A DNA stretch of 64,000 bases from Thalassolituus hydrocarboniclasticus. Lineage in GTDB: Bacteria; Pseudomonadota; Gammaproteobacteria; Pseudomonadales; Oceanobacteraceae. The translations under genes and the position numbers were made by a program. The first letter of the stretch is position 1. Every line of letters begins with the position of its first letter. This document shows positions 8,728 to 52,500 of this stretch, in pieces. Under the pieces are notes generated by a model. It did no database searches and was not told where the DNA came from. It saw only the letters and a list, made by a program, of their open reading frames with translations. The stretch is taken from NCBI RefSeq assembly GCF_025345565.1, contig NZ_CP054475.1:763501-827500 (forward strand), given 5' to 3'.

Positions 8728-9045
8728 TTACAGATCGACCCAGATCCGTCCATCGCGGATTTCGTGCGCAACGGCGGTTAAACGCTGGCCCTGACAGGGG
8801 CCGGCGATGCACTGACCATCTTCAATCAGAAACAATGCACCGTGCATGGCGCACTGAATCAGGCAACCATCGCTGTCGAGAAACTGGTCCGGTAACCATT
8901 CCAGATTAATGCCCAGATGCGGGCACTGATTGTGATAGACGAAGAACTGTCCCTGTTTGTGCACAACAAAGACCGACTGGCCTTCGAGTTCAAAACCTTT
9001 ACTCTGTCCTTCCGCAATTGTGTCTGTGTGGCACAATGCCCGCAT
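8728..9045 (-). CDS. Rieske [2Fe-2S] domain protein
   Basis: A stand-alone Rieske ferredoxin-like protein of 105 residues. The two cluster-binding boxes are CPHLG (Cys, His) and CAMHGA (Cys, His), typical of soluble NirD/ferredoxin-type Rieske proteins. No signal peptide is seen, so it is probably cytoplasmic. I chose the ATG at 9045 (MRALCHTDT) because AGGAAAG lies a few bases upstream; the frame stays open to 9135. It is divergent from the iron permease, with only 32 bp between start codons, so each promoter must reach into the other's coding sequence. Its redox partner is unknown. Confidence 0.88.
   Translation of the reverse strand: MRALCHTDTIAEGQSKGFELEGQSVFVVHKQGQFFVYHNQCPHLGINLEWLPDQFLDSDGCLIQCAMHGALFLIEDGQCIAGPCQGQRLTAVAHEIRDGRIWVDL
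9029..9044 (+). promoter_or_regulatory. Candidate sigma-54 promoter ahead of the iron permease
   Basis: TGGCAC, 5 bases, CCGCA: a perfect -24 half and a GC at -12 with the correct GG-N10-GC spacing. Transcription would start near 9056, 22 bp before the permease ATG. It lies in the first codons of the Rieske gene, so chance similarity is possible. Confidence 0.3.
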
Positions 9046-9077
9046 ATTCTTTCCTGCAGCCTGAGTTAATTCCTGCG

Positions 9078-10073
9078 ATGAACACCGCCCTGAAGCGGCG
9101 CAAGCATATCCTGCTGTTATGCCTGCTGCTACCACTGATCTTTATTCTGCTGGGCCTGGCCAGTGGCAGCCAGAGTCTGGACTGGCTGCTGCATACCGAT
9201 GTTGGCCAGACCATTCTCTGGCAGATCCGCCTGCCACGGGTGCTGATGGCCTTTCTGGTGGGGGCTCTGCTGGCCTGGGCCGGGGTACTGATTCAGGGCA
9301 TGGTGCGCAATCCACTGGCCGATCCGGGGCTGATCGGTGTATCCGGTGGTGCGGCGGTGGCGGCGGCCGTGTTTGTGGTGCTGCAGGCTGCGGGTCTGGC
9401 CTTGCCTTACTGGGCGCAGCCCATCGCCGCCTTTGCCGGTGGTGTGGTGGCGCTGCTGCTGGTGTTGCGCCTCGGCCTGCAGGGTAATTCCCTGCACGCC
9501 ATGAGCTTTCTGATTCTGGCCGGGATTGCGGTGAATGTTCTGGCCGGAGCTTTGATTGGTTTGTTGTCGTATATGGCCAGTGACGATGCACTGCGCCAGA
9601 TTACCTTCTGGTCGCTGGGCAGTTTATCCGGCGCCAACTGGGGTTGGGTCGGGGCGATGAGCGCGGTGCTGCTGGGCGCGGTGATCTTCTGGCCCAAACG
9701 TTTACGCAATCTGGATGCGCTGTTGCTGGGCGAAGTGGAAGCCCGCTCGCTGGGCGTTTCGGTCAGTCGTCTGCAGTGGCAGGTCGTTATCTGGGTTGCG
9801 CTCTGTGTGGCACTGGCGGTATCGGCCAGTGGTGTGATCGGCTTTATTGGCCTGATCAGCCCGCATATTGCTCGTCTGTTAACCGGTGCTGCACACCAGC
9901 GGGTACTGCCGCTGGCGGTGGTGCTGGGCGGCTGTTTGCTGGTGGCGGCTGATATGTTGTCACGGGTGATTGTGGCGCCGGCGGAACTGCCGATCGGTAT
10001 CGTTACCACATTGCTGGGCGCGCCACTGTTTATTGCGCTGATGATTCGCGAGAAGAAGAGGTTGGCATGGTGA
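9078..10073 (+). CDS. FecCD-family iron/haem ABC transporter permease
   Basis: Inner-membrane permease of 331 residues with about ten hydrophobic segments. Family blocks are RLPRVLMAFLVGALLAWAG, RNPLADPGLIGVSGGAA and GLISPHIARLL, typical of BtuC/FhuB/HmuU proteins that import Fe-siderophore, haem or B12. I chose the ATG at 9078 (MNTALKRRK); in-frame ATGs further upstream lie within the divergent Rieske gene. It overlaps the ATPase gene by 7 bp. No substrate-binding protein or TonB receptor is adjacent, so the substrate cannot be fixed. Confidence 0.9.
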   Translation: MNTALKRRKHILLLCLLLPLIFILLGLASGSQSLDWLLHTDVGQTILWQIRLPRVLMAFLVGALLAWAGVLIQGMVRNPLADPGLIGVSGGAAVAAAVFVVLQAAGLALPYWAQPIAAFAGGVVALLLVLRLGLQGNSLHAMSFLILAGIAVNVLAGALIGLLSYMASDDALRQITFWSLGSLSGANWGWVGAMSAVLLGAVIFWPKRLRNLDALLLGEVEARSLGVSVSRLQWQVVIWVALCVALAVSASGVIGFIGLISPHIARLLTGAAHQRVLPLAVVLGGCLLVAADMLSRVIVAPAELPIGIVTTLLGAPLFIALMIREKKRLAW

Positions 10074-10831
10074 GCCCTGACACTCTGATTCAGGCTTCCG
10101 GGCTGGGCTTAAGCCGCGCCGGCGCTGCCATTGTGGATGATGTCGGTTTTCAGCTGGCTCGCGGTGAGCTGGTGATGCTGGTGGGGCCCAACGGCGCGGG
10201 TAAATCGACGCTGATGAATATGCTGGCCGGTATGCTGCAGCCTGATCGTGGCATGCTGCAGTTTAGTCAGCAGGATACCTGTAACTGGCAGCGTCGTGAC
10301 TGGGCGCAACGGGTCACCCTGGTGCCACAGCTGAGTCCGATGAATTTTCCGCTGTCGGTGAGTGAGGTGGTGCAGCTGGGTGGTCTGGCGCACAGTGACT
10401 CGGTGGTGGCGCTGCGCACTCAGGTGCAGGACGCGTTACAGGCCTGGGATATCGCTTATCTGGCCGGGCGCGATGTACGTCTGTTGTCGGGTGGTGAGCA
10501 ACAGCGTTGTCAGCTGGCGCGCAGCTGGATTCAGGTGAATCAGGCTGACAGTCAGCTGTGGCTGCTGGATGAGCCTCTGAGTGCGCTCGATCTGCGCCAT
10601 CAGCAGCAGTGTATGAGCCATATCCGCCAGCTGACGGCCACGGGTAAGAGTGTGCTGATGGTGGTGCACGATCTGAATCTGGCGCGGCGCTATGCCGATC
10701 GTGTGCTGCTGCTCTGTTGTGGTCGTCTGGTCGCGGACGGGCCGGCGCGGGAGGTATTAACGGCGGAGCAGGTCAGTGACACCTTCCGCGTTGAGACGGT
10801 GCTCGAGGGGGATTACCTGCACTGGGTGTGA
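10067..10831 (+). CDS. HmuV/FecE-like ABC transporter ATPase
   Basis: ATP-binding subunit, 254 residues, partner of the preceding permease. Walker A is GPNGAGKST, the Q-loop is in LVPQLS, the signature is LSGGEQQR, Walker B is LWLLDEPLSALD and the switch His is in VVHDLN. The length and LSGGEQQRCQLARSW block resemble the haemin ATPase HmuV, but FecE and FhuC types cannot be excluded. It ends 23 bp before the terminator T-run of a convergent, Fur-type-promoter RNA unit, which supports an iron-related role. Confidence 0.88.
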   Translation: MVSPDTLIQASGLGLSRAGAAIVDDVGFQLARGELVMLVGPNGAGKSTLMNMLAGMLQPDRGMLQFSQQDTCNWQRRDWAQRVTLVPQLSPMNFPLSVSEVVQLGGLAHSDSVVALRTQVQDALQAWDIAYLAGRDVRLLSGGEQQRCQLARSWIQVNQADSQLWLLDEPLSALDLRHQQQCMSHIRQLTATGKSVLMVVHDLNLARRYADRVLLLCCGRLVADGPAREVLTAEQVSDTFRVETVLEGDYLHWV

Positions 10832-10854
10832 ATAAGCCGACGCGGATAGCCGAT

Positions 10855-10890
10855 AAAAAAACGCCCCTCGACTCTGAAAGAGAGAGGGGC
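10855..10890 (-). terminator. Intrinsic terminator of the candidate iron-responsive small RNA
   Basis: Arms GCCCCTC and GAGGGGC (10863-10890) contain a nested CTCT-TTC-AGAG stem and are followed on the minus strand by GTTTTTTT (T7 at 10855-10861). The plus-strand direction has no T-run, so it serves minus-strand transcription. Confidence 0.88.
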
Positions 10891-10978
10891 AAAGCAACCG
10901 TGATTAGCTTGATGAGAGAGATCTCCACCCCGACAACAAAATGAGGTGTTGAACACCGGCGCCATCTCTGACGTCGAT
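10855..10978 (-). ncRNA. Candidate PrrF-like, Fur-repressed small RNA
   Basis: A 124-nt minus-strand unit lies between a consensus-like promoter (TTGACA, 17 bp, TATTGT) overlapped by Fur-type sequences and a strong intrinsic terminator. No plausible reading frame starts within it. The segment CTCATCAAGCTAATCACGG near the 3' third closely resembles, as I recall it, the conserved core of Pseudomonas PrrF RNAs, which pair with mRNAs of iron-using proteins (sodB, sdh, acnB) under iron starvation. A GAGATGGCGCCGGTGTT segment near the 5' end may match another PrrF block. Its neighbour is a haem/iron-type ABC transporter. The start site is estimated from the -10 box. Confidence 0.72.
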
Positions 10979-10984
10979 GGGTAA

Positions 10985-11029
10985 ACAATAATGATTCTCA
11001 AAAACATTGTCAATAATAATTCTCATTTA
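10985..11029 (-). promoter_or_regulatory. Sigma-70 promoter with two Fur-like boxes for the small RNA
   Basis: On the minus strand, -35 TTGACA (11013-11008) and -10 TATTGT (10990-10985) are 17 bp apart. One Fur-like box covers the -10 region (minus strand TTGAGAATCATTATT, 10987-11001); a second (plus strand AATAATAATTCTCATTT, 11012-11028) abuts the -35. TGAGAATCATTATT differs at only two positions from the matching part of the classical Fur consensus. Confidence 0.78.
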
Positions 11030-11062
11030 TATTTGAGGCATTCCTGAGCATATTCAGAGCAC

Positions 11063-11098
11063 AAAAAAGCCGTGGCAGAAAACTGTCACGGCTTTTTT
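11063..11098. terminator. Bidirectional intrinsic terminator after the cyclic-nucleotide-binding gene
   Basis: A 16-bp stem, AAAAAAGCCGTGGCAG against CTGTCACGGCTTTTTT, with loop AAAA and one G-T wobble. It lies 22 bp past the stop of the minus-strand gene at 11120 and isolates it from the small RNA promoter. Confidence 0.88.
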
Positions 11099-11119
11099 GT
11101 TTCCCACAGGGTGCGGCGT

Positions 11120-11914
11120 TTATTCTTTGTCGATCAGTTGCTGATTCATCAGTGTGATGCGGCGCGCCAGGTTTTCAATCAGATTCACCGCCGCTTTCGG
11201 CTGAGCTTCGATCAGCAGGATAAAGTCATGCTGTGGCACAGCCATAATGGTGCACGGCGTGCGGGCAATCACAGTAGCGCTGCGTGGCTCGCCGGTAAAT
11301 ACCGCCATGGCACCGAAGACTTCTTCTTCGCCGATATCGCCGACTTTGACGCCATCAACAAAGACATCCGCTTCACCACTGATAATGGTGTACACATGCT
11401 CCGCCGGGTCACCCTGCTGGATAATGACATCGCCGGGCTGAATGTTCTGGAAGCCGGCGGTTGGCCTTACCTGGGTTTTGAAGGTGTCAGCCAGATAGTT
11501 CAGCAACAGGGCATTCTGGCACACCAGAAAGTGGCTCCAGTAATGCTGGCGGCGTTTGTCGGAATAGACGTGGCGCAGGAAGCGGTCGCGGTCAATCGGG
11601 ATCAGTTCAACGTATTCATCGGTACGCAGTACCGGTAAAGGCAGATCAAAGGAGTGGATGATGCCAATCAGGTCACCTTCGTCAAAACTGACCAGATTCT
11701 GGCCGTTTTTACTCAGGTGCAGCATGCCATCCTGAATCAGAAAAAACTGGTCACGGTCGAAGTGCTCGTAAAGATCGTCGACGCTTTCCAGTGTGATGGG
11801 CGTATTACTCAGTTCAAACCCTTCGAGCAGCAGCCGTACCAGATGAGAAATCCGGTTAATTAACTGTTCGATGGTGTCTGATGGTTTGCCAACCAGAAAC
11901 ATGCTATCCCCCAC
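11120..11914 (-). CDS. Cyclic-nucleotide-binding domain protein without DNA-binding domain
   Basis: A 264-residue cytoplasmic protein. The C-terminal half (about 150-250) is a CRP-type nucleotide-binding barrel with GDVIIQQGDPAEHVYTIISG and the phosphate cassette FGAMAVFTGEPRSATV, in which the PR-S-A-T residues suit cAMP or cGMP. The N-terminal half (about 40-120) resembles a degenerate second barrel (FFLIQDGMLHLSKNG, FDEGDLIG). No helix-turn-helix or catalytic domain follows, so it is probably a sensory or adaptor protein. It is a single-gene unit with its own terminator; a CTGT-N8-ACAG dyad lies 22 bp upstream of the start. Confidence 0.8.
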   Translation of the reverse strand: MGDSMFLVGKPSDTIEQLINRISHLVRLLLEGFELSNTPITLESVDDLYEHFDRDQFFLIQDGMLHLSKNGQNLVSFDEGDLIGIIHSFDLPLPVLRTDEYVELIPIDRDRFLRHVYSDKRRQHYWSHFLVCQNALLLNYLADTFKTQVRPTAGFQNIQPGDVIIQQGDPAEHVYTIISGEADVFVDGVKVGDIGEEEVFGAMAVFTGEPRSATVIARTPCTIMAVPQHDFILLIEAQPKAAVNLIENLARRITLMNQQLIDKE

Positions 11915-16099: not shown

Positions 16100-17284
16100 T
16101 CAGAACATATAACCCATCCCCAGATTAAAGCCATCGGCGTTACCGGCGTCTTGATTCTGTTGCTGGATATCGGCTTTAAATACAATGCCCTCAACCGGAT
16201 AATAATTAACACCGGCATCGCTCTGACTGGCGTTCATATCATCCTTCTGTGACCAGGCGCTCTGGCGGGCAAAAAATCCCCATTGTTCGTTCAGGCGGTA
16301 ATTCACTTCAACATAACCACCATCCTGCAGCGCTTTACCGGCAGCATCGGCGGCATTGCCACCCAGATCCCAGCGTGCGTAAAGCGCTTTGGTGGTGATA
16401 TCACCCAGCTGATAAATCATATGGGCGCCAACCAGTGTCGCATCGTCGGCATAAGAGATTTCTGCGCTCTGATCCAGATCCGGCTGATACTGCGCGTAAG
16501 CCGCCAGTTCCAGACCGGCGGTGCCGCGATAAACAACGCGCCCGGTTACGGCCAGATCGAAGGCATCGGCAAAAGAACCTTTCTGCTTACCGGATTTCAG
16601 ATCAAACGGATCGGCACTGCTGTCGTAGGTTGGATCATCGGTTTTCAGACCTTCAGAAATCATCAGGTCGTAACTGATGCCATTATCCAGCTGGTGGGTC
16701 AGGCTGATACCGGCCGAATACCAGGTGGTCGGGATAATGGTGGTTTCAATCACCGGTCGCTCAACACCGTAAAATGTCGGTGGCTCGTGGGTTTCATTAA
16801 TCATGCCTACCGGCATCAGCATCACACCGCTGCGGAACTGCATATTGCTCATCAGGTCGAGTTCAACGTAGGCCTGTTCAATTTCTACCGCGCCACGGGC
16901 GCCATCGCTGACCAGCGTGTGTTCCACTTCAAATTCAGACACAAAGCGTGCGCGGTCACTGAAGTCGTAGCCAAAAAACAGCACCATACGGTGTAAATCA
17001 ATCTGGCGGGTATCGGTGCCATCGACATCCAGATGGTTGTAATGCATTTCGCCATAACCGCCGATATGCACGTTTTTATTTGTCCCGGAAGATTGCTGAG
17101 CGGCCACGCTGTCCATGCTGTCGGCCATCGCATTCAGGCGTTCGTTCATGCTCTGTTCAAGCTGTTCGATACGTTTCTGCAGCTCGATAATGGTTTGCTG
17201 ATCATCAGCCTGAGCCAGTTGTGTATTGGCCAGTAATACCGCACCGGCTAACAGGGCGGCGTGTTTTTTCAGGTTGGCTTTCAT
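16100..17284 (-). CDS. Outer-membrane porin with N-terminal coiled coil
   Basis: A 394-residue outer-membrane beta-barrel. A signal peptide (LLAGAVLLANTQLAQA) is followed by a short coiled coil (IIELQKRIEQLEQSMNERL) and then alternating amphipathic strands ending in GMGYMF, with the C-terminal Phe needed for barrel assembly. The coiled-coil-plus-barrel layout recalls DcaP-like and OprO/OprP-like trimeric porins. It is the last gene of the imelysin cluster, 32 bp after the second imelysin gene, which suggests a solute handled by that system. Substrate is unknown. Confidence 0.82.
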   Translation of the reverse strand: MKANLKKHAALLAGAVLLANTQLAQADDQQTIIELQKRIEQLEQSMNERLNAMADSMDSVAAQQSSGTNKNVHIGGYGEMHYNHLDVDGTDTRQIDLHRMVLFFGYDFSDRARFVSEFEVEHTLVSDGARGAVEIEQAYVELDLMSNMQFRSGVMLMPVGMINETHEPPTFYGVERPVIETTIIPTTWYSAGISLTHQLDNGISYDLMISEGLKTDDPTYDSSADPFDLKSGKQKGSFADAFDLAVTGRVVYRGTAGLELAAYAQYQPDLDQSAEISYADDATLVGAHMIYQLGDITTKALYARWDLGGNAADAAGKALQDGGYVEVNYRLNEQWGFFARQSAWSQKDDMNASQSDAGVNYYPVEGIVFKADIQQQNQDAGNADGFNLGMGYMF

Positions 17285-47852: not shown

Positions 47853-48335
47853 ATGAACAGGCAGCATGGACTGACCCTGGTCGAGCTGGTGATCATGATG
47901 GTTATTATCAGTATTGCTCTGGTAGCCAGTCTGCGGGCATTTTCGTTGTTGTCAGGCCGTAGTGCAGATGCTTTGTTACAAAGCAGGGTCACCAGCCTGG
48001 CACAGATTTATCTGGATGAAATACTGGCCCGCCAGTTTGATGAAAACACGGGTCCCGCCGGCGTTCCGCCTTATACCGGCGTATGCCGCATCACCGACGA
48101 TGGCGAAAACCGCGAACAATACGATGATGTGGATGATTACAATGGTCTTAATGAAAGTCCGGCATTAATGGATCAGGATCTGGCTGCACTGTACAGCGGT
48201 TATCAGGTCAGTGTTGAAGTGCATTGCGATGATTCCGTTGGTGTTAATCCGGGCGGTGCGAAACGCATTGACCTGGCTATTCTCGCTCCCAATGGTCAGG
48301 CAAGCCACTTTACGGCTTACAAAGGCAATTTCTGA
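47853..48335 (+). CDS. mshD: MSHA minor pilin MshD
   Basis: A 160-residue prepilin: leader MNRQHG, then LTLVELVIMMVIISIALVA, with Leu instead of Phe at mature position 1. The C-terminal part has an acidic segment (YDDVDDYNGLNESP) that could bind calcium, and the order matches Vibrio mshD. It overlaps mshO by one base. Confidence 0.87.
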   Translation: MNRQHGLTLVELVIMMVIISIALVASLRAFSLLSGRSADALLQSRVTSLAQIYLDEILARQFDENTGPAGVPPYTGVCRITDDGENREQYDDVDDYNGLNESPALMDQDLAALYSGYQVSVEVHCDDSVGVNPGGAKRIDLAILAPNGQASHFTAYKGNF

Positions 48336-49589: not shown

Positions 49590-52500
49590 TGCGTATTGCG
49601 CTCCGTTTACTCTTATCTAACTGTTTTCTGTTGTGGCTTCTATTGAGCAATATCGCTGCTTTCGCAGCTCCCGGCGATATTATTTTCAGCGATGATTTTG
49701 AACGTAACACACTTGGTCCAAACTGGGCCGTCAGCAGCGGCAGCAATGCCGGGATCAGTAATGCGACAGCAAATTCCCAATCACGCAGTTTATTTTTACG
49801 CTGGGATACCGTTAGCGTTGATACACCAGTATTTGATATGACGGGAAAAAACGGTGCGACATTATCGTTCTGGTGGCGGCGCGGCGATGACAGTTTCAGT
49901 GAAGATCCGGATGGTAATGAAGATCTGATCATTTATATCTTATTGAATAATACAACCTGGGTAGAGCTGGACCGTTTTGCTGGTAATGGTACGGCTGGAG
50001 AATCCGGACTGGCTGAATACGAATTACCGGCGGCTGCAATGTACACCGGTTTGCGTATCCGTTTTCAGCTTGATCGTGGTAATGGCCCTGATAATGATTA
50101 TTGGCATGTTGATGACGTCAAACTGACCGAGAGTCGCGGTTACTGTGGCGATGATTTTGTTATTTTTTGCGATGATTTTGAGCGCAGCAGTCTGGGGGCT
50201 GATTGGTCCGTAACGTCTGCTGGAGGCAATGCCGGAATTTCCAGTGCCACTTCCAGAAGCCCGACTCGTTCATTAAATACCAACAGCGGTATTGTCGGTG
50301 TGCAGCTGAAAACCCTGGATTTAAGCTTTTATTCAGAAGTGACTGTTGAATACTGGTGGCGGCGCGGAGACGATGCTTTCAGTGAAGATCCGGATCCCGG
50401 TGAAGATCTGGTGGCTGAATACCGCACTGATAATGGCAGCTGGATTGTACTGCAAACCATTCTGGGAAATGGCCTGACCGGCGATACCGGAAACAGTTCT
50501 TTTACCCTGCCTGCCAGTGCGCTGAGCAGCAATTTTCAGTTCCGCTTCCGTCAGACCGGGGGCAACAGTGGCGGTAATGATTACTTCCACCTGGACGATC
50601 TGCGTATTAAAGCCGACAGCGCGCCACTGACCTGTTTTACCGATGATTTTAACCGCTCGTCAGCGGGTAATGACTGGGTTACTTCAGCGGTGTCCGGCAG
50701 CTTTACGCCCTCGCTGGTAAATAACCGTTTGCGCCTGACACAGGATGTTACCTATCAATCCACGGCTTCGACACTGCAGCGTTTATTCCCTGCGGCCAAT
50801 AATATTGTGGTGATTGAATTCACCCATTACGCCTGGTCAACTTCCTTTTTTGGTACCGGTGCTGACGGTATCTCGGTGGTCTTCTCTGATGCCACGATTA
50901 CCCCGCAGTCCGGCAGCTTTGGTGGCTCACTGGGTTATGCGCAACGGGACAATGGTGATCCTGGCTTTGCCGGCGGTTGGCTGGGAATTGGTTTGGATGA
51001 GTACGGAAACTTTTCCAATCCGACCGAAGGCCGGATTGGGGGGCCGGGCGCCAGATCCGACAGCGTAACCATCCGTGGTTCGGGCAGTGGCAGCAGTGGC
51101 TATCGTTATCTGACAGGCACCAACAGCTTATCTCCGGGGGTGGATCAACGGCCAACATCCTCTGCGGGTGGCCCGGCTCACCGTTATCGTTTTGTTATTG
51201 ATTCCCGTGTTGCCGGACAATCGCTTGTCAGCGTACAGCGCGATACCGGCTCAGGTTATGCCACGCTGGTGGCGCCGGTAAATATTGCCAATATTAATGG
51301 GCAGGCGGCTATTCCACAGAATTTACTGTTGTCACTGACCGGCTCTACCGGCGCCTCCAGTAATAATCATGAGATAGATCGGTTACGGGTCTGCGCCAAT
51401 ACGATTAATCCGATCGGGCCGATTGTTCATCATTTCGAAATGGATTACGCCAGCAGTGGCCTGACCTGTTCGCCGCAGGAAGTACTTATTCGTGCCTGTG
51501 CCAATGCCAGCTGTTCCAGTCTGTATACTGATCCGGTCACGGTGACACTGGCGCCTTCCGGCTGGCAGGGAGGAAATGTACAAACTTTCAGTGGTGGTTC
51601 GGCGACGCTGGCTTTGCGTCAGAACATTGCAGGCAGTGTGAATCTGCAGGTGTTGTCGTCGGTTCCGGTATCGCAGGCGTTTACGTCTAATCTTTGCTCG
51701 CGTGACGGTGGCGCATTATCGACCAACTGCAGCATGACCTTTGCAGACTCTGGTTTTGTGCTGGATATTCCGGATTTTCCTGCAGGGCTGGGCACCAGTG
51801 ATGTACTGCTGAAAGCCGTTAAAAAAGATGACTCGACACAGGCCTGCGTACCGGGGTTTGCTAATGTCAGTCGCGATGTTGTGCTTAATTCACAATATAT
51901 CGACCCTGGTAATTCTTCCCGGGTAGTGTCCTGGCCGGTAACGGTTAATGGCAATAACATCGCTGATATTTCCGCATCACCGGTGACACTCACACTGAAT
52001 TTTGATGCCAATGGCCAGACCCCGCTGCAGATAAATTATGCGGATGCAGGGCTGATGCAGCTGAATGTCCGCTATGAGGGCAGTGGCAGTGAAGCCGGGC
52101 TGGTTATGAGTGGTAACGACCGCTTTGTCAGTTATCCGGCCGGTTTCTGTATTCAGACCGATGCCAATGCCGGCGAATGCAACCCGGCCAGTGCTGCAAA
52201 CTATGCCGGTTGTCCGGCCTTTGCTAAAGCCGGCGATAATTTTAATCTGAATATTTCTGCCGTCGGCTGGCAGAGTGCTGCCGATACTGATTTTTGCGAT
52301 AACACGCCAACCCCCGGTTTTGCACTGACAGATATGGCTCTGAGTACGGAGCTGGTTGCCCCATCCGGTGGAGTTAATGCCGTACTCACACCGGCACAAT
52401 ATAATCACAATGCTGCTGTGGATAATAAAAATATTCTGGCCGCGAATGTCTCTGAAGTCGGAGTATTTAATATCCGTTTAACAGCGGGCAGTAATTATCA

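Follow-up and report, generated by a model that had tools for sequence, protein, structure and literature searches.

A PrrF orthologue in Thalassolituus hydrocarboniclasticus, a predicted iron-sparing small RNA

The marine oil degrader Thalassolituus hydrocarboniclasticus carries, with a probability that we put at about 0.9, an orthologue of PrrF that would act as a Fur-repressed, Hfq-assisted, iron-sparing small RNA. Its homology to PrrF, the covariation of its helices, its synteny, its distribution and the conserved complementarity of its core to sodB and sdhC were established by computation. Earlier work describes PrrF from Pseudomonas and names ArrF and NrrF as iron-repressed homologues (PMC2851614, PMC4211561); here PrrF-like RNAs are predicted across about ten families of the order. 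No report of a native PrrF in Oceanospirillales or Halomonas was found in the open-access literature, where the mention of Halomonas concerns the engineered PrrF1 of P. aeruginosa; an earlier report elsewhere is possible.

The transcription unit and its match to the PrrF family

The window, which is the whole stretch of 64,000 nucleotides that was analysed, contains the following features at and around the locus.

9018..10073, plus strand: FecCD-family permease in the HmuU/PhuU position, start codon uncertain
10067..10831, plus strand: HmuV/PhuV-like ABC ATPase, convergent with PrrF (NCBIfam model; synteny)
10855..10978, minus strand: PrrF orthologue, predicted 124-nt transcript (match to the PrrF covariance model and to our own covariance model, R1)
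10855..10890, minus strand: Rho-independent terminator, GC stem and seven Ts (GCCCCTC...GAGGGGC-G-TTTTTTT)
10894..10923, minus strand: antisense core GATCTCTCTCATCAAGCTAATCACGGTTGC, nearly invariant in 28 copies and common to Pseudomonadaceae PrrF
10922..10952, minus strand: second hairpin (helix 2), both-sided changes in 7 of 9 pairs
10955..10978, minus strand: 5' hairpin (helix 1), compensatory changes
10985..10990, minus strand: -10 hexamer TATTGT, from the sequence
10986..11000, minus strand: Fur-like box B, TGAGAATCATTATTG, overlapping the -10 (7-1-7, three mismatches)
11008..11013, minus strand: -35 hexamer TTGACA, from the sequence
11011..11025, minus strand: Fur-like box A, TGAGAATTATTATTG, overlapping the -35 (7-1-7, three mismatches; similar boxes in related loci)
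11061..11101, no strand assigned: inverted repeat AAAAAAGCCGTG...CACGGCTTTTTT, from the sequence; probably the upstream gene's terminator
11120..11914, minus strand: cyclic-nucleotide-binding protein gene, a conserved neighbour just upstream of PrrF

The promoter, the two Fur-like boxes, the 124-nt unit and the seven-T terminator that an earlier note had described are all present at the positions it gave, with a 17-nt spacer between TTGACA and TATTGT on the minus strand. The unit (10978-10855) folds better than its shuffles (z -2.5), and its terminator closes an RNA in the range of about 110-125 nt that is typical of PrrF. It was also said to contain no reading frame; the open reading frames listed across it begin at TTG and extend beyond the terminator. 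Fur-like 7-1-7 sites are found seven times in the 64-kb window versus 1.7 expected, although this count would be weak as the sole support for the boxes; paired boxes at the -35 and -10 are also present in most of the related loci. By analogy, the predicted unit would be repressed by Fur and would respond to iron. Further Fur-box-like sites with two mismatches each lie on the plus strand at 50089-50103, 47896-47910 and 16197-16211 of the window.

A search of the window with Rfam at its curated cut-offs reported no match, and would have left a false negative. The PrrF model (RF00444) has a gathering cut-off of 90 bits, which is a curator's choice and not a biological feature, and with all scores shown it aligns to 10854-11013 from end to end (model positions 1-150) with 50.4 bits, below that cut-off. 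Searched across all 4.07 Mb of the genome, the model matches this one place (E 2.3e-7); the next-best RF00444 match has an E of 2.1, and no second copy was found with this model. These results bear out the earlier proposal of a PrrF-class RNA, present in a single copy and outside classical Pseudomonas. With the promoter removed the score is still 32.3 bits, and hence the match does not merely reflect a Fur box and a terminator. The core, whose resemblance to PrrF had been suggested earlier, aligns with the family as AUCUC-UC-AUCA-GCUAAUCACGGUU, and this aligned core, AUCUC(U)CUCAUCAAGCUAAUCACGGUU, is identical to it nearly letter for letter. The RyhB and NrrF models are absent among the 15 Rfam families listed up to E 10. 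Weak plus-strand matches (Thr_leader, rli61 and others) come from the inverted repeat that spans 11061-11101 and were set aside.

When 28 oriented copies are aligned, the core GATCTCTCTCATCAAGCTAATCACGGTTGC is almost invariant and its flanks are variable. Covariation is found in the predicted helices, mainly in the two 5' hairpins, with 94.5% of the cells paired and 61 double-changed cells versus 17.6 in shuffles; none of 500 shuffles reaches any of the five covariation measures, and controls with a slid structure fall far lower. Conservation is therefore not restricted to the terminator, since the core is nearly invariant and the hairpins covary.

Proposed mechanism and predicted targets

The proposed mechanism is modelled on Pseudomonas and on general small-RNA biology, and the genome encodes both Fur and Hfq. 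When iron is present, iron-loaded Fur would occupy both boxes, over the -35 and the -10, and keep the promoter off, and under iron starvation this repression would be released and the 124-nt RNA made. The two hairpins would leave the pyrimidine-rich core open, probably with the help of Hfq, and the core would then pair with messages for dispensable iron enzymes at their Shine-Dalgarno and start regions, with UCUCUCUC directed to the ribosome-binding site and GCUAAUCACGGUUGC to upstream or start-codon sequence. Such pairing would block translation and lead to decay of the message, and iron would thereby be spared.

Judged from the sequences, sodB is the best-supported candidate target, followed by sdhC. 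The sodB leaders of the family contain GCAACC...GGAGA ahead of the ATG, where GCAACC is complementary to GGUUGC of the core and GGAGA to UCUCU, while in Oceanobacter the intervening UAGC and UGAU add pairing with GCUA and AUCA. This complementarity is kept across seven genera despite differing leader sequences, and none of 200 dinucleotide-shuffled cores is as good as the true one (z -4.4, averaged over genomes, with genera g4 and g7 left out). In sdhC, the GUG start lies within CCGUGAAUAGC, a site that makes 10 of 11 possible core pairs in seven of the eight genera (z -2.35, with 5 of 200 shuffled cores doing as well). By contrast, the complementarity to acnB is not significant, with 25 of 200 shuffled cores doing as well as the true core; of the three leaders proposed earlier for a pairing check, sodB and sdhC are supported.

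Within the genome itself the signal is less distinct. Among 403 starts ranked by pairing energy, drawn as a background from twenty spread 20-kb stretches, sodB, sdhC and acnB take ranks 32, 23 and 73, so that a prediction from one genome alone would be unconvincing. By plain duplex energy, with accessibility ignored, the targets did not stand out, and a genome scan for 19-nt near-perfect anti-core sites gave 23 matches versus 28 in the reversed control, which is no excess.

The best core pairing among 402 sampled starts of the genome belongs to an IorA-like [2Fe-2S] subunit gene (L186:10934-11497; G000:C1:3310934), with the pairing sequence GGCAACC-AUGAUCAG. This pairing is kept in close relatives, where none of 200 shuffles is as good, and it lends some weight to the explanation that the RNA is real and works mainly on other messages, such as those for haem or iron uptake or for the IorA-like protein, and that the complementarity to sodB and sdhC is incidental. 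We consider this very improbable, because the sodB complementarity persists over seven genera whose leaders differ, IorA is itself an iron protein that fits the same iron-sparing role, and the gene was picked for ranking first, which biases the test. The start of the IorA-like gene, GGCAACC-AUGAUCAGGCU, is a candidate new PrrF target in its own right.

Gene neighbourhood, relation to known systems and distribution

The best NCBIfam model for the ATPase at 10067-10831 is the haem transporter ATPase, with 259.5 bits versus a cut-off of 261, and the label of a convergent HmuV-like gene is thus fair. The permease at 9018..10073 scores best as BtuC-like, and therefore a haem substrate is inferred from synteny. 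The cyclic-nucleotide-binding gene lies directly upstream of PrrF and co-directional with it in most genomes of the family of Thalassolituus, and the neighbours of PrrF in Bacterioplanes are those of Thalassolituus. The same upstream gene in the same orientation is found in Stutzerimonas, other Pseudomonadaceae and three further families, and the corresponding neighbour of prrF in P. aeruginosa is presumably PA4704/cbpA. A convergent haem ABC ATPase and permease stand next to PrrF in Pseudomonadaceae (L227, L228) and in one further family (L232); in L227 genes for a substrate-binding protein and a HutX-matching protein come next in the operon, which faces a haem-receptor-like gene. In P. aeruginosa, prrF has been reported downstream of the phu haem operon (PMC5835353). 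Taken with this report, the same order of cyclic-nucleotide-binding gene, PrrF and convergent haem ABC genes in Pseudomonadaceae indicates that the setting is ancestral, and not new as had been supposed. The near-invariant core, the covarying flanking helices and these common neighbours argue for orthology to PrrF, which is well supported; a formal RF00444 hit is not claimed.

PrrF1 and PrrF2 of P. aeruginosa (RF00444) have in common with the Thalassolituus RNA a Fur-like promoter, two 5' hairpins, a GC-rich terminator and a place beside haem ABC genes, and their targets sodB and sdh are predicted targets in Thalassolituus (P. aeruginosa features and targets: PMC2851614, PMC5835353, PMC13104616). 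Published accounts confine tandem prrF genes to P. aeruginosa or to a few Pseudomonas (PMC2851614, PMC4211561). The P. aeruginosa core CUCAUCARGCUAAUCACGGUU is common to both, with A for G in Thalassolituus. The two are similar in length (114-116 nt in P. aeruginosa, 124 nt in Thalassolituus). They differ in copy number (a tandem pair versus one) and hairpin sequence, and Thalassolituus has UCUCUCUC where P. aeruginosa has UCUCCUC, a GGUUGC that lengthens the pairing to the right of the core, and an RF00444 score of 50 bits versus at least 127 in Pseudomonadaceae. Azotobacter belongs to the Pseudomonadaceae, and its ArrF, likened here by description, adds no range beyond that family, unlike the Thalassolituus PrrF. 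ArrF of Azotobacter vinelandii has been described as an iron-repressed PrrF homologue that controls sodB (reference in PMC2851614).

RyhB of enterobacteria and Vibrio and NrrF of Neisseria follow the same logic, being Fur-repressed and iron-sparing with sodB/sdh messages, but they have no sequence or covariance match to the Thalassolituus RNA and are analogues, not relatives. An independently arisen Fur-regulated RNA of this kind, whose likeness to PrrF reflects convergence on a pyrimidine core and a Fur box, could account for a score under the Rfam cut-off, for a 5' half unlike that of Pseudomonas in sequence, and for a UCUC core, which is expected in any anti-Shine-Dalgarno RNA. However, pairing with a ribosome-binding site leaves the common string AUCA-GCUAAUCACGGUU unexplained, the same two genes flank PrrF in Pseudomonadaceae, other families bridge the scores with 36-84 bits, and the RyhB and NrrF models give no match. 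Synteny and core identity largely refute an independent origin, which we regard as very improbable. That the locus is a decayed, non-expressed prrF relic or a 3'-UTR fragment is hardly credible, given that the promoter, the Fur boxes, the core and the terminator all remain intact under strong constraint in nine Thalassolituus genomes and beyond.

PrrF-like RNAs extend well past this genus. The exact 21-nt core string occurs in 22 stretches among 84,980 species genomes, carried by Thalassolituus/Thalassobium, Oceanobacter, Bacterioplanes, Oleispira, less precisely named records and one Stutzerimonas; the flanking proteins share 97-100% identity with those of T. alkanivorans. The R1 model, built from the 28-copy set, was run on 294 genomes of the order and detects PrrF-like RNAs in 47 of them, spread over about ten families. 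In a class-wide sample of 274 genomes it matches three, all from Pseudomonadales, with no match outside the order. On the same 294 genomes RF00444 matches 41 at E up to 1e-4, of which 12 exceed 90 bits. All 12 are Pseudomonadaceae, the family with Stutzerimonas, with 127-162 bits, and the scores in other families range from 36 to a best of 84 bits, so that the cut-off draws its line around Pseudomonadaceae and not between PrrF and non-PrrF.

Core variants, tandem copies and significance

In the neighbouring genus g2 (L023, L028, L033, L034, L192-L194), a hairpin of 17-32 nt lies inside the PrrF core, between CUCAUC and GCUAAUCACGG. The insert sits at one fixed point in four different sequences, all of which fold, with one compensatory C-G to A-U change, and the sodB leaders of this genus keep complementarity to both halves of the core. 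Tandem copies are found as well, with five within 1.3 kb in L011 (G013, 957-2211), where every copy has a core and a terminator of its own, three in Oceanobacter kriegii (L018/L040) and two in Bacterioplanes sanyensis (L027). The split cores of g2 and the five-copy array of G013 are more unusual than the Thalassolituus locus. In genus g4 (L190, L191, L032) the right half of the core is degraded to GCUAAUCACAUUG, GCUAAUCACUGCU and GCUAAUCACUUGU; in this eighth genus, where PrrF has diverged or goes undetected, sdhC is without the CCGUGAAUAGC site, which looks like a co-loss of the right half and the sdhC site.

PrrF likely belongs to the order as a whole (GTDB Pseudomonadales) and not to Pseudomonas in particular, with one ancestral locus between cyclic-nucleotide-binding and haem-uptake genes. 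Its core would consist of two separable pairing modules, UCUCUCAUC for the ribosome-binding site and GCUAAUCACGGUUGC for sequence upstream or at the start, which one genus has split by a hairpin, inserted at a single point in four sequences, while the sodB complementarity of each half was kept.

Most of the PrrF family goes unseen at the public RNA-family threshold, and natural variants, including split cores and up to five tandem copies, are material with which the target choice of the core may be tested. A textbook small RNA linked to virulence would no longer be a peculiarity of Pseudomonas but a long-standing regulator that spares iron in marine and soil-dwelling relatives, which include hydrocarbon degraders whose alkane metabolism is iron-dependent.
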